Assembly: GCA_017383125.1 (NCBI GenBank)
Contig: JAFNYY010000042.1
Location: 1 to 52,967, forward strand
Direction of reading: 5' to 3'
Length of the DNA stretch: 52,967 nt
Origin: Schwartzia sp. (in: firmicutes)
GTDB taxonomy: Bacteria; Bacillota; Negativicutes; Selenomonadales; Selenomonadaceae
How positions within the stretch are numbered: the stretch's first letter is position 1; each line of letters opens with the position of its first letter. The position numbers were made by a program, and so were the translations under genes. Positions 18,636-22,718 of this stretch are shown piece after piece. The notes beneath the pieces are model-generated. The model was not told where the DNA came from and ran no database searches. It worked only from the letters and a program-made list of their open reading frames with translations.

Positions 18636-18664
18636 TTGACAATAATTAATGCGTGTGCTACTAT
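18636..18664 (+). promoter_or_regulatory. Promoter of the cobalamin-riboswitch transcript
   Basis: A perfect TTGACA (18636-18641), a 17-nt spacer and TACTAT (18659-18664). The riboswitch begins about 35 nt downstream of the expected start point. Confidence 0.7.
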
Positions 18665-18704
18665 GAGCGTGTTGCAGGAAATGTAACGAAAACAGAATAC
18701 TGAG

Positions 18705-18856
18705 AGCTAGGTGTCGTAGACTTAATAGATAAGCCGGTAAAGCCGGCACGGTCCCGCCACTGTAACGAGGAGCGAATCTGCAGAGCGAAAGCAAGCCACT
18801 GTACATCGGGAAGGCGCAGGTGAGCGATGAATCGGAGTCAGGAGAACTGCCTAGCT
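18705..18856 (+). ncRNA. Cobalamin (B12) riboswitch aptamer
   Basis: The conserved core is plain: GGTCCCGCCACTGTAA at about 18751-18766, then AGCCACTG, GGGAAGGCG, and the B12 box AGTCAGGAGAACTGCC ending at 18851. AGCTAGG (18705-18711) pairs with CCTAGCT (18850-18856) to close the P1 stem. CGCAGGT (18815-18821) could also pair with ACCTGCG (18871-18877), linking the aptamer to the downstream region. Such RNAs usually lower expression of B12 synthesis or uptake genes when cobalamin is bound. Here no such gene follows directly; the next genes are a DnaA-N-like protein and a MutA-like protein beyond several terminators. Confidence 0.93.
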
Positions 18857-18937
18857 GACATCGTCGATTGACCTGCGAGTGATGGGTAGAGGATGCAATA
18901 ACTGAGGTGCTGTACATTGCAGCATTTTCGGTGTACA

Positions 18938-18980
18938 GCTCTTTCCCGCAGGTTTCGGCAGGGAAGGGGCCTTTTTATTT
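18938..18980 (+). terminator. Riboswitch expression-platform terminator
   Basis: A 10-bp stem (18938-18947 with 18961-18970, including two G-U pairs) is followed by CTTTTTATTT. Upstream, GCTGTACA (18909-18916) can pair with TGTACAGC (18932-18939), which shares two bases with the terminator stem. The two hairpins could therefore compete, as expected of an attenuator. Confidence 0.75.
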
Positions 18981-19069
18981 GTCGGAGAATTTCTCCATGG
19001 TTTCAGCTTCTATGGAGAAGTTATTGCTCATACATTTCATTCAGTCCTGTGTATTGCTGCAATGCAGCT

Positions 19070-19105
19070 CTCCCCGGGCTTGCCCCGGGGAGCCCTCCTC
19101 TTTTT
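19070..19105 (+). terminator. GC-rich hairpin with T-run in second unit
   Basis: A perfect 9-bp stem (19070-19078 with 19084-19092) with loop CTTGC is followed by CCCTCCTCTTTTT. The T-run begins 8 nt after the stem, so termination may be weaker than normal. Confidence 0.6.
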
Positions 19106-19208
19106 GTCAAAAGGTTTCTCCATGGTATCAGCTTCTGTGGAGAAGCATTGCTCATATTTATTTTCCTAGTGGCTACTGTGTAGCAGCCGTCGAGGATTTC
19201 CCGGTGGC

Positions 19209-19243
19209 AAAGGAATCGTCAGCTGGCGCTTCCTTAATTTTTT
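19209..19243 (+). terminator. Terminator closing the riboswitch region
   Basis: AAGGAA pairs with TTCCTT around an inner CG/CG step with one mismatch, and TAATTTTTT follows. It would end any RNA that reads through the two upstream units. Confidence 0.55.
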
Positions 19244-19266
19244 CCAACAAACGCTGAAAAGCGTGT

Positions 19267-19272
19267 TATAAT
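19267..19272 (+). promoter_or_regulatory. -10 element for the DnaA-N-like gene
   Basis: A perfect TATAAT, but no good -35 at 16-18 nt (best is TTTCCA-like). The expected start point is about 10 nt before a terminator-type hairpin. Confidence 0.45.
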
Positions 19273-19290
19273 ATGCGAAGAACTGAAAAG

Positions 19291-19320
19291 CAGCCGTTCA
19301 TTATTATCGGCTGTTTTTTT
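19291..19320 (+). terminator. Hairpin with T7 run in the leader of the DnaA-N-like gene
   Basis: CAGCCG (19291-19296) pairs with CGGCTG (19308-19313), preceded by AAAAG and followed by seven Ts. It lies between the -10 at 19267 and the coding start. It is either the terminator of upstream transcription or a leader attenuator. Confidence 0.75.
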
Positions 19321-19352
19321 GCAGATTAAAAAGGATGAAGGGTGGAACAAAA

Positions 19353-19691
19353 GTGGATAACAATAAGCAGCAGACCGCAAAATCGGTTATCAATAATGCA
19401 ACAGAAGATTGGGCACCTAACCCCCACACCAGAATGGTCAAGCTTACTCCAATCGAGGAGCGTATAAAAGAGGAACGGCCGGAGCTGTCTGAGGGAATGA
19501 CCCGTTTGCGGGAAATACTGGGCGAGGATACATATCAGAAGAGAATATCATCGCTGGTGAATATCACTCGTAGCGGAGAGACACTTATGGTCGTTACCAG
19601 CTCCTTCCTGGAGCGTTCTATGCTGGAGCGTGACTGCATTCCCGCGCTGAAGGAAGCCTTTGGTGTTTCAAAGGTTCGGGTTGTAGTCTGA
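19353..19691 (+). CDS. Small protein resembling the DnaA N-terminal domain
   Basis: 112 residues from GTG 19353, with AAGGGTGG about 7 nt upstream. An ATG at 19335 would add six residues but has AAAAAGG only one base away. The last ~65 residues follow the DnaA domain I pattern: RLREILGEDTYQKRISSL, then a beta hairpin GETLMVVTSSF, then ERDCIPALKEAFGVSKVRVVV. In DnaA this domain binds partner proteins and DnaB and does not bind DNA. The first ~50 residues are polar. There is no AAA+ or DNA-binding part. Function is unknown; it probably forms a unit with the MutA-like gene 42 bases downstream. Confidence 0.6.
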   Translation: MDNNKQQTAKSVINNATEDWAPNPHTRMVKLTPIEERIKEERPELSEGMTRLREILGEDTYQKRISSLVNITRSGETLMVVTSSFLERSMLERDCIPALKEAFGVSKVRVVV

Positions 19692-19733
19692 TTCGGTACT
19701 GCTTCGTAAATAATTTTGTGAGGTCATACAGTC

Positions 19734-21473
19734 ATGGAAAAGAAAACCGATGGATTCTCTGTAGAGGACAGCATAGTCCTGGCAGAGGTGCCGATTACCG
19801 CTGTGCTGCCGCAGGAGTTTAATGTTCAGGCAATCTGGGCTCGTGAACGGGGAGCTGCGATGATAAATTTCCGTCTGGACAGAGCTACCCGTCATGGACA
19901 GGATGCCGAGGCGCTGGACACGGATGATGTCAGACACGGAGGACTCTCCCTTTCCACTCTTGCAGATTTACACAAGGCATTCACAGCCCTGCGGCCGGAG
20001 GAACGGCCGATATTTGTGGCCGCGGGAGCAGAGGGAGCTCCTGTTTTGGGTATGTTTTCGGCATTGCTGTCAGCCAACGGTCAGGCTGACTCTGCTCTGC
20101 GAGGAACAATCGGTGCTGATCCTTTGGGCGTTTTGGCATCCGAGGGAACACTTCCCATGGATATAGATTCTCTTTACGACGAAATGGCGGCTACCGTGCT
20201 TTGGGCGGATGAGAATATGCCGGAGCTGAGAACGGTGCTTGTCGATATGGTGCCTTATCATGCGGCAGGAGCTGCAGCGGCCCGGGAGATTGGCTATGCT
20301 GCCGCAACTGTGGAAGAGTACATGAAGGAGCTGGTTAAGCGCGGGGTGCCGGTGGATATGTTTATGCGCCACCTGACAGTATCCTTCGCTGAAGGAATAG
20401 ACTCCGGTTTGGACAAGGCAAAGATTGATGCTGCGGCGGCGATTATCGGCAGAGTTGCACAGGGATGCGCCGGCGTTCAGTTTGTTGTTTTGCCCCGACA
20501 GAAAGCAATGTACCCTGCATCTATGGTTTTAGGTACGATTCGGGAGCGTGTCGTTGACGAGTATATTCTCAGCGGTATGAACGATATTTCCCGGGCGGCG
20601 GATGTTACCGGAAGTCTTACGGAAATCGGCATGGCGAATCTTGAAGCAGTGAGGGAGAGCGGTGGTATTCTCCGTCTCTTGTCGGATGGAGTCGTTCAGC
20701 AGTGTATAGCGGACGACCTCAACAAAAGACTAAACCGCTGGGCAGAGCGTCTGGATAATGCAGAGACTCCACTGGCACCGCGCCGCCGCTCAGCTTTCTA
20801 TGGTGTTGATACTCAGAGAATCCTGTGGCAGCGGGATCGTGATATAAGCGAATACCGGGCTGATATTGATGAGGCAGTGAGTGCGGCCAGCATTCTTGAA
20901 CTGGAGCATACAGAACAGAGCAGCAGCGAATTGCTAACGGCAGTGAAGAAGGCTTATCTTTCCGGTGCAACCATCGGTGATGTTGTTATTGCTCTCCATC
21001 GGGGAGAGGATGATTTCTTTATTGATTCCACGCTGCCCCGCCATAAGGCTTCGGCAGAGTTCCTGAAGCTTCGCCGCTTTGTATCCGGTTTTGTGAAGGA
21101 TTATAGCGAAAAGCCTCTGATTTATCTGGCTCGTCTGTCAGCGGAGCTGAGCCGTTGCGATAAGGGAGTAGAGACTCAGCTGGAGCGAGTAATGGCCCCT
21201 GCCGGGCTGGCTTTTGTCGGCGAGGAATTCTTCTCGGCCAAGGACGCGGCGGAGCATGCTCTGAGAAGCGGTGCACAGGTAATCGCCTTTGCAGCTTCTC
21301 CGGAGATGGAGTATGCAATAGAGGAGGCTGCCGCCGAAGTCAGAGAACAGGGCGCGGATATGTTTATCATCGGCGTAGGAAATATTGAGCGCACCGATAA
21401 TATCGACTGCGTGTTTAATTCTACCTCCTCCTGCCTGACGCTTCTCGGTTGGACAGAACGGGATGAATATTGA
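19734..21473 (+). CDS. Methylmalonyl-CoA mutase small-subunit (MutA)-like protein
   Basis: 579 residues against about 620-640 for the family. Recognisable blocks: GTIGADPLGVLASEGTLP near 125, the ADENMPELRTVLVDMVPYHAAGAAA stretch near 165, ATVEEYMKELVKRG near 190, and VSFAEGIDSGLDKAKIDAAAAIIGRVAQ near 215. The C-terminal ~100 residues are a Rossmann-like domain without the DxHxxG cobalamin motif, as expected of MutA. The DPAGGSYYVE-type block of active mutases is degenerate (AADVTGSLTEIGM). MutA supports the B12-binding MutB, which is usually the next gene; here MutB is absent and a terminator follows. It may be a divergent small subunit or a regulatory paralogue. Confidence 0.75.
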   Translation: MEKKTDGFSVEDSIVLAEVPITAVLPQEFNVQAIWARERGAAMINFRLDRATRHGQDAEALDTDDVRHGGLSLSTLADLHKAFTALRPEERPIFVAAGAEGAPVLGMFSALLSANGQADSALRGTIGADPLGVLASEGTLPMDIDSLYDEMAATVLWADENMPELRTVLVDMVPYHAAGAAAAREIGYAAATVEEYMKELVKRGVPVDMFMRHLTVSFAEGIDSGLDKAKIDAAAAIIGRVAQGCAGVQFVVLPRQKAMYPASMVLGTIRERVVDEYILSGMNDISRAADVTGSLTEIGMANLEAVRESGGILRLLSDGVVQQCIADDLNKRLNRWAERLDNAETPLAPRRRSAFYGVDTQRILWQRDRDISEYRADIDEAVSAASILELEHTEQSSSELLTAVKKAYLSGATIGDVVIALHRGEDDFFIDSTLPRHKASAEFLKLRRFVSGFVKDYSEKPLIYLARLSAELSRCDKGVETQLERVMAPAGLAFVGEEFFSAKDAAEHALRSGAQVIAFAASPEMEYAIEEAAAEVREQGADMFIIGVGNIERTDNIDCVFNSTSSCLTLLGWTERDEY

Positions 21474-21540
21474 TTTTTTCCTGTGATGGCAGATATATTG
21501 TTTGCCGTCATAGGAAATTACAAGGATATAGTGATGAAAG

Positions 21541-21580
21541 GCGGATTGAGCTGAGTTGATGTTCAATTCGCTTTTTATTT
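21541..21580 (+). terminator. Terminator after the MutA-like gene
   Basis: GCGGATTGA (21541-21549) pairs with TCAATTCGC (21563-21571), one G-U pair, followed by TTTTTATTT. Confidence 0.75.
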
Positions 21581-21583
21581 TAG

Positions 21584-21612
21584 TTGACATTTATAGAATT
21601 ATAGGGTAATAT
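21584..21612 (+). promoter_or_regulatory. Promoter of cbiK
   Basis: A perfect TTGACA (21584-21589), a 17-nt spacer and TAATAT (21607-21612). The leader to the ATG is about 105 nt. Confidence 0.75.
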
Positions 21613-21722
21613 TTATACATAACATCTATAGCATATAATCATAAATAAATTGGATTGATTATGTGCTTTGGACTGGCGTTTTATGTAGTCCAGTAAACAA
21701 GTAAGAAGGAGCGATCACTAAA

Positions 21723-22718
21723 ATGAAGGAATGGAAAAAAGCGTTGGCGATTACTATGGCATCTGTTACAATTGGCGGTTTCGGTGCAGCTGCAGAGGCT
21801 GCTGGCTATGAGCTGAATCCAGAAGTAAAGACCGCAACTCCTGCTCTTCAGCAGGCAGCGCAGATTGGCGTCCTGAAGTACACCAATCCGGATGAGGAAA
21901 TGCAGGCTAAGGCTGATAAGGATGCCATCATCGTTATGAGCTTCGGTACTACCTATAAGGAGACCCGTGAGAAGACTATCAATGCAACTGTTGAGGCAAT
22001 CAAGGCTGCAAATCCGGGCAAGAAGGTTGTAACGGCTTTCACCTCCCATATTATTATTGACCGCGTAGCCGCTAAGGAAGGCATTAAGTATCCGACTCCG
22101 GAGGAAGCCTGCCAGCAGCTGGCTGATGAAGGCTATACCCGTGTAGCAATGTGCTCCCTTGATACATTCCCGGGTATGGAGTACGCTTACAAGGTAGCTG
22201 TATTCAATCAGTACAAGAGCCTTTTCAAGAAGGCTTCCATGGCTACTCCGCTTATGTACTGGATGGGTCAGGAAGAGCAGACTGATGAGGTAGCTGAGTT
22301 CGCTGAGGCAATCAAGACCCAGTTCCCGACCATCGGCAAGAAGGACGCCGTTCTCCTGCTGGCTCATGGTACTGTACATCCTTCCAATGCATACTATTCC
22401 GTGCTTCAGTATCGCCTCGATGCTTTGAAGGCAGGCAATGTGTATGTCTATACTGTCGAGGGCTGGCCGAACCTCGAGACTGTCATTGAGCAGCTCAAGG
22501 CAAAGAAGATACAGAATGTTACCCTTCAGCCGATGATGATGGTTGCCGGCGACCATGCAAATAACGATATGGCCGGTGACGAGGATGATTCCCATAAGAG
22601 CATTCTCGAGAAGGAGGGCTTCAAGGTCAGCACTTACATTCATGGTATCGGTGAGAATGAGGCAGTCCGTGCCCTCTATGTAAAACATGCTGTCGAGGCT
22701 GTTGAAGCTTTGAAGTAA
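21723..22718 (+). CDS. cbiK: Exported CbiK-type sirohydrochlorin cobaltochelatase
   Basis: 331 residues. The first ~27 are a classic signal peptide (KK, hydrophobic core, AAAEA just before the mature protein), so it acts outside the inner membrane, like the periplasmic CbiK of Desulfovibrio. Metal ligands by family spacing are H215 (LLAHGTVHP), E246 (YTVEGWP) and H278 (VAGDHANNDMAGDE). MSFGTTYKETREKT at 72-85 is the N-terminal lobe block. CbiK inserts Co2+ into sirohydrochlorin in the anaerobic B12 route; the exported form may instead handle haem or metal. AAGGAG precedes the ATG. It has its own promoter and terminator. Confidence 0.93.
   Translation: MKEWKKALAITMASVTIGGFGAAAEAAGYELNPEVKTATPALQQAAQIGVLKYTNPDEEMQAKADKDAIIVMSFGTTYKETREKTINATVEAIKAANPGKKVVTAFTSHIIIDRVAAKEGIKYPTPEEACQQLADEGYTRVAMCSLDTFPGMEYAYKVAVFNQYKSLFKKASMATPLMYWMGQEEQTDEVAEFAEAIKTQFPTIGKKDAVLLLAHGTVHPSNAYYSVLQYRLDALKAGNVYVYTVEGWPNLETVIEQLKAKKIQNVTLQPMMMVAGDHANNDMAGDEDDSHKSILEKEGFKVSTYIHGIGENEAVRALYVKHAVEAVEALK

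Follow-up and report, generated by a model that had tools for sequence, protein, structure and literature searches.

Regulatory RNAs placed behind a riboswitch, or derived from one, have already been described. In Listeria, AspocR is a B12-riboswitch-controlled antisense RNA to pocR that is encoded opposite its target, and SreA is a SAM riboswitch acting in trans on the prfA mRNA (PMC8079631). In the case of Rli55 and EutX, a B12 riboswitch lies upstream of a noncoding RNA of ~450 nt that restrains a B12-dependent pathway at low B12 (PMC8079631, PMC6317780).

In this work we analysed a stretch of 52,967 nt, referred to as the window, from Schwartzia sp. (Selenomonadaceae; GenBank assembly GCA_017383125.1, contig JAFNYY010000042.1), whose positions are used throughout. 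We confirmed at one locus a complete cobalamin riboswitch followed by a terminator and by two tandem structured units (Table 1). From the comparison with related genomes we consider it probable that this locus produces a B12-riboswitch-controlled antisense RNA, which would block the translation of a mutase gene, here named mcmA, at low B12.

Table 1. Features of the riboswitch locus and of the genes behind it (positions in the window)
Feature	Position	Strand	Basis
Promoter TTGACA-17-TACTAT, TG before -10	18636..18664	+	Consensus match
Cobalamin riboswitch aptamer	18692..18868	+	RF00174, 88.5 bits, E 1.4e-20
Putative antiterminator strand GGGUAGAGG	18884..18892	+	Complementary to 18939-18947 by sequence reading
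First terminator T1, CUCUUUCCC..GGGAAGGGG + U5	18939..18976	+	Sequence reading; predicted B12-dependent stop
Unit 1 core: GUCGGAGAA, hairpin P1 (18991-19019), conserved strand	18978..19047	+	R1, 55.4 bits, E 7.8e-8
Putative antisense strand of unit 1, UUAUUGCUCAUACAUUUCAUUCAGUCCU	19021..19048	+	Predicted -18.8 kcal/mol with G001 mcmA start
Terminator T2 closing unit 1, CUCCCCGGGCUUGCCCCGGGGAG + U-tract	19069..19105	+	Hairpin and U-tract in sequence
Unit 2 core, hairpin P1 at 19116-19144	19103..19168	+	R1, 52.9 bits, E 2.5e-7
Putative antisense strand of unit 2, GCAUUGCUCAUAUUUAUUUUCCUAGUGG	19145..19172	+	Predicted pairing with mcmA start codon and Shine-Dalgarno
Terminator T3 closing unit 2, AAGGAA..UUCCUU A UUUUUU	19210..19243	+	Sequence reading
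Candidate extended -10 promoter TGTTATAAT for downstream genes	19264..19272	+	Inferred from sequence; G001 form TGATATAAT
118-aa protein gene	19335-19691	+	Co-directional with cassette
Methylmalonyl-CoA mutase paralogue	19734-21473	+	Pfam PF01642
cbiK cobaltochelatase	21723-22718	+	Pfam PF06180

A first-pass annotation, made from the letters of the window, had claimed here a promoter, a full B12 aptamer, a competing antiterminator/terminator pair and a gene-free stretch with tandem structured units and further terminator hairpins, and all these elements were found again. Precisely, the promoter is a match of a kind expected once at about chance level, yet it lies where a promoter should be, with a predicted transcription start at ~18671; its TTGACA and its -10 are kept in a sister genome (G001, a Selenomonadaceae MAG), in which the whole 711-nt region matches the window at 91%. 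The score of the aptamer is well above the gathering cut-off of 31.5 bits and the match covers the full-length model (positions 1-189), RF00174 being the sole Rfam match within the window. By sequence reading, the competition between antiterminator and terminator (GGGGAAGGGG : CUCUUUUCC : GGAAAAGAG) recurs in other genera, and the 110 nt preceding the first unit contain a terminator-like hairpin in 53 of 84 loci, against 4% in shuffles. No gene was found in the region 18870-19330, where the ORF at 18907-19257 (116 aa) has no Pfam match and changes frame between the unit copies. A leader peptide encoded in the unit was rejected as well, the frame across the conserved strand varying by copy and by species. 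The units correspond to a tandem 43-nt repeat (18978-19020 and 19103-19145, 84% identity, spacing 125) within a region, 18870-19330, whose fold has a z of -5.35 relative to shuffles, and both were recovered by a covariance model, R1, that was built without the window copies.

DNA matches to the part downstream from the aptamer were found beside B12 riboswitches of other genera. When aligned, the unit consists of GUCGAAAGGUUUU, the hairpin P1 of variable sequence, a conserved single strand (GCAUUGCUCAUACAUUUCAUUC), a second hairpin and a terminator. The covariance search that had been suggested for this part found R1 matches in 99 of 151 Selenomonadaceae genomes, belonging to 18 of 30 genera, with one to three copies per locus, so that the region is conserved. 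In a sample of the class Negativicutes 42 of 250 genomes matched, sporadically and including five families beyond the Selenomonadaceae, and in a sample of the phylum (348 genomes) the matches were confined to members of the Selenomonadaceae. Over 83 distinct sequences, 96.5% of the cells of P1 are paired and nine of its ten pairs are changed on both sides, with a covariation of 0.707 vs 0.327 when shuffled and at most 0.16 when slid; its loop shows no sequence conservation. A comparison of the unit with the 4227 families of Rfam 15 gave no match, the best other one being sX14 (14.8 bits vs a cut-off of 80, E 4.1); the unit is a novel RNA element, not represented in that release. Within 130 nt past the last unit, 68 of the 84 loci have a terminator-like hairpin (6% in shuffles), and in the predicted folds the conserved strand is unpaired more often than the remainder (0.56 vs 0.39; 63 of 82 loci). 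As predicted in this way, an anatomy with no gene, an exposed strand and its own terminator is that of an RNA gene.

Two further contacts of the unit were considered and not retained. A pairing of CAUUGCUC, in the conserved strand, with GAGYGAUG just 3′ of the aptamer makes eight pairs in the common types and shows zero compensatory changes; a long-range helix AGAACUGAAUG:CAUUCAGUUCU around T1 and P1 is clear in some genera only, and the overall difference between cognate and swapped partners is not significant. In g3, g10, g16 and g41 (genera are numbered in this way), AACUGAAUG of this proposed helix recurs before the mcmA start. We also observed that the loop of the terminator after the units is often GUGGAG or GUGGAA across genera despite a differing stem (e.g. 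L003, L018, L032, L057, L087 and L133); this loop could possibly be a protein site or a second contact.

Almost all units sit ~150-500 nt 3′ of a B12 riboswitch (RF00174), while, conversely, many B12 riboswitches are found without a unit. The exceptions are L074 and L077 of genus g7, with a weak unit standing on its own, and L084, which has a truncated aptamer. At L074 and L077 the unit and its terminator are flanked by a gene encoding an AraC-like regulator and by a convergent gene, and in the neighbourhood there is a gene whose product has a Tat signal and resembles a hydrogenase small subunit. As regards L084 and L085 (G068, contig C8, ~1,868,900 and ~1,883,700), ~15 kb separate the intact from the truncated riboswitch and unit; the intact copy is followed by a convergent, putative recombinase-like gene, and the truncated one stands before serS. 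A mobile, apparently integrative, element thus seems to have inserted at the RNA gene of G068.

The genes behind the cassette were sorted at 84 loci and follow two regimes, with either a B12-related or an unrelated or convergent neighbour. No B12-related gene is found behind the cassette in g12 (8/8 loci), g41 (6/6), g17 (3/3) and g3 (5/6), where the next gene is unrelated (e.g. serS or aspartase-like, named from sequence) or convergent, often within 40-180 nt of the cassette and sometimes merely 40-90 nt away. In these genera the riboswitch therefore appears to have no target in cis, and aptamer and unit are still intact. In the other regime the cassette is followed by mutA (g9, g10, g16, f13, f17), by cbiK, alone or after the 118-aa gene (g1, g3, g7, g13, g15, g20, g24, g46), by a CitMHS-like transporter (g5, g10, g16, g21), or by the 118-aa gene, the mutase paralogue and/or cbiK (g7, g15, g20, g23).

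The window belongs to this second regime, with the 118-aa gene, the mutase paralogue and cbiK (19335..22718) in the same order in G001. The 118-aa protein has no match in Pfam, NCBIfam or PDB, and may resemble the N-terminal domain of DnaA; it occurs in five genera, adjoining the paralogue in g1 and g23 and cbiK in g1, g7, g15 and g20. The paralogue is diverged, its PF01642 match being limited to residues 26-242. About 20 nt after TGTTATAAT there is a further terminator hairpin (GCAGCCG..CGGCUG followed by U7) before the 118-aa gene, also kept in G001, and this promoter and hairpin (19264-19321) are possibly a second small attenuator. The claim that the riboswitch has no protein target was too strong for the window, in which the next genes are B12-related and co-directional, yet a separate candidate extended -10 promoter lies in between; the cassette may have an alternative or additional cis role on these three genes.

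Genome-wide, near-perfect matches (0-1 mismatch) to 17-nt antisense sites of the conserved strand were almost all the units themselves. The strand holds repeated CAU (anti-start) motifs, and a partial complementarity to mutA starts, noticed by reading, prompted a ranking of targets. In three genomes whose cassette has an unrelated neighbour gene, mutA ranked 2/202, 2/205 and 19/295 among the gene starts, and the third-best start of G048 was that of a 548-aa acyl-CoA mutase large subunit (TIGR00641), the gene here named mcmA. Its operon encodes a CoA-transferase-like protein, mcmA, a 131-aa B12-binding subunit, MeaB, an epimerase and a carboxylase/decarboxylase subunit (names from sequence motifs); read in this way, it is the operon of the succinate-to-propionate pathway, and mcmA is an adenosylcobalamin-dependent methylmalonyl-CoA mutase subunit, 86-100% identical across the family.

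Ranked against 702 gene starts (copy-number corrected), the mcmA start falls in the top 10% in all 17 genera tested and in the top 5% in 12; these background starts were taken from three genomes, in which genes were called approximately. Since the assembly containing the window, 84% complete, yielded no mcmA, the window RNA was tested against the mcmA of G001: the strand of unit 2 pairs with it at a predicted -23.9 kcal/mol, in the 0.85th percentile of the 702 starts, and none of 200 shuffled linkers was as good. In G001 the unit (C9:238305) and mcmA (C9:487070) lie apart, so that the target is not opposite the RNA gene. Importantly, the match is specific to cognate pairs. In 23 of 24 genomes the own RNA pairs with the own mcmA better than RNAs of other genera do (-21.6 vs -17.8 kcal/mol, Wilcoxon p 6.6e-6); when the RNAs were permuted among genera, with one genome per genus, the observed value was never reached in 20 draws of 2000 permutations (p < 0.0005), and the Shine-Dalgarno half alone gave p <= 0.001 in the genus-level permutation, all these p-values being optimistic because the genomes are related.

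Compensatory changes are consistent with the same pairing. In G024, AUGAGU of mcmA faces ACUCAU of the RNA; in g3 a CAAC:GUUG vs CAAU:AUUG change distinguishes G048, G068 and G081 (AUGAGCAAC with GUUGCUCAU) from G003 (AUGAGCAAU with AUUGCUCAU); and in g16, G108 has CACU:AGUG where G133 has CAAU:AUUG. A second block, (GA)ACUGAAUGAA, directly upstream of the mcmA Shine-Dalgarno, pairs with UUUCAUUCAGU(UC) of the RNA in g3, g10, g16 and g41, where the flanks have diverged. The pairing is weak in g11 and g17. The mcmA start AUGAGCAAUG is also kept where no unit was detected, and in those genomes the linkers taken together pair on average at least as strongly; this half of the match hence predates, or is independent of, the RNA, and coevolution is argued from the changes and from the upstream half. 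A target-like site, AACUGAAUGA, is found before mcmA in G042, G043 and G065 (L348, L362, L361), in which no unit was detected, which predicts diverged units missed by the model. In terms of sequence complementarity, the conserved strand and the mcmA translation start form an antisense match that is cognate-specific.

In the same cognate and permutation tests mutA gave p values of 0.02-0.07, and metH, considered as a control target, was rejected (cognate-swap and permutation p 0.31-0.35). As a general target mutA was rejected too, the pairing being good in g12, g41, g46, G003, G133 and G072 and not in g1, g7, g15, g20, g23 and g24. In g12, which lacks mcmA, mutA is likely to be the target instead, judging from the pairing. 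No RF00174 match was found before mcmA at the 10 loci checked nor before the g12 mutA in three genomes, and in six other genomes mutA is preceded by a B12 riboswitch (L199, L200, L205, L206, L216, L224); the RNA therefore matches those mutase genes that have no cis riboswitch. We also observed that in many Selenomonadaceae a B12 riboswitch lies directly upstream of mutA, which encodes the small subunit of the B12-dependent methylmalonyl-CoA mutase. Since this position is unusual for the gene of a B12-using enzyme, these riboswitches may be ON switches.

Comparison of the sequences establishes the aptamer, the structure of the unit, their tight linkage, cassettes without a related gene and the cognate-specific complementarity to mcmA, and the mechanism that we propose is as follows. 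With B12 present, the riboswitch would allow T1 to form and transcription would stop at ~18980, leaving a short RNA; with B12 scarce, transcription would run through one or more units and end at T2 or T3. Each unit would then expose the conserved strand between its two hairpins, and the strand would cover the Shine-Dalgarno and start codon of the mcmA mRNA (in g12, without mcmA, probably those of the mutA mRNA), so blocking translation. A riboswitch that is off with B12 would in this manner be inverted, the B12-dependent enzyme being made only when B12 is available (B12 sparing). We infer the transcript ends, the translational repression, the direction of the switch and the action in trans, the last two on the basis of how the locus is arranged and by analogy with AspocR, Rli55 and EutX, whose RNAs are terminated by B12. 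The idea of a B12-controlled noncoding RNA, put forward in the first-pass annotation, gains support from the conservation, the covariation, the cassettes without a related gene and the predicted antisense target.

A different reading would see the riboswitch and the unit terminators as a two-stage leader that controls, one stage after the other, the co-directional genes behind it (mutA, cbiK, the transporter, the mutase paralogue); read-through would depend on a second signal or on a protein bound by the unit, and any pairing with mcmA would be secondary. B12-related genes (mutA, cbiK, the CitMHS-like transporter) do recur behind the cassette in many genera, and at L007 cbiK begins ~25 nt past T2, which leaves no room for a promoter and makes cis control likely there. 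As a general explanation we regard this reading as rather unlikely, since whole genera have no related gene behind the cassette, reading found no conserved partner able to undo T2, several species, the window included, have candidate promoters past the last terminator, and the cognate-specific match with mcmA is left unexplained. By analogy with SreA, one RNA may also act both in cis and in trans.

The tandem hairpins behind a B12 riboswitch recall Rli55 and EutX (PMC8079631, PMC6317780), and the units might accordingly sequester an RNA-binding protein at low B12. We give little credit to such a decoy: the P1 loop is not conserved, what is conserved is a single strand with an anti-start-codon sequence, and units without riboswitch are almost absent, so that no set of protein-regulated mRNAs carrying the motif is seen. 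The likeness to Rli55 that had been suggested thus holds for a riboswitch-controlled regulatory RNA and not for its action, which is predicted to be mRNA base pairing rather than protein sequestration. That the locus is a relic, or a row of redundant terminators left after the loss of a target gene, as had also been suggested, could be argued from the cassettes without a related gene and from the truncated riboswitch beside one of the units of G068; it is contradicted by the family-wide conservation, and with covariation of P1, a near-invariant strand and intact aptamers across genera we find it hardly credible. Returning to the antisense RNA, its extension to a family-wide, trans-acting, vitamin-sparing regulon, in which tandem modules shut off methylmalonyl-CoA mutase when B12 is low, and in some genera mutA or further B12 enzymes, inverting the riboswitch and letting B12 supply set propionate production, is a reading that we favour with some reserve.

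If true, a riboswitch would work here in a new mode, through a mobile antisense module acting on the distant mRNA of an enzyme that uses the riboswitch's own ligand, and a new conserved RNA family would be added. B12 supply would be linked to methylmalonyl-CoA mutase, the key step of propionate formation in rumen and gut Selenomonadaceae, whose response to B12 shortage would become a directly testable question, and database entries of 'orphan' B12 riboswitches could in fact be RNA genes.

A noncoding RNA behind the switch with a terminator of its own, as in riboswitch-controlled regulatory RNAs, is present at this locus, and so are, by prediction, the accessible strand complementary to a translation start and the co-variation typical of base-pairing sRNAs. 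In searchable papers we found no description of this RNA in Selenomonas or Negativicutes, nor of a B12-sparing sRNA. With Rli55 and EutX the locus shares the B12 riboswitch upstream of a noncoding RNA; those RNAs bind the response regulator EutV via ANTAR elements, which are dual hairpins with conserved loops, whereas here a conserved single strand is complementary to an mRNA start. With SreA it would share the base pairing of a riboswitch-derived RNA with another mRNA, but there the ligand-terminated aptamer RNA pairs, while here we propose a strand beyond the terminator, made only without ligand. AspocR is similar in that B12 terminates the RNA and a longer RNA, made at low B12, represses a B12-linked function, probably by pairing (PMC8079631). 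In contrast to AspocR, the predicted target lies elsewhere in the genome, the pairing stretch of ~20 nt belongs to a structured module present in repeats, and what is targeted is the B12 enzyme itself instead of a regulator. RyhB-type sparing RNAs are made at cofactor scarcity and repress enzymes that use the cofactor; the RNA described here would likewise be made when its cofactor is scarce, but RyhB is controlled by the Fur repressor and this RNA by a riboswitch in the same transcript. The kind is thus already known from AspocR, Rli55 and EutX, and the novelty lies in the RNA family and its build from tandem modules, in the predicted distant mRNA target and in the proposed sparing of a ligand-dependent enzyme.
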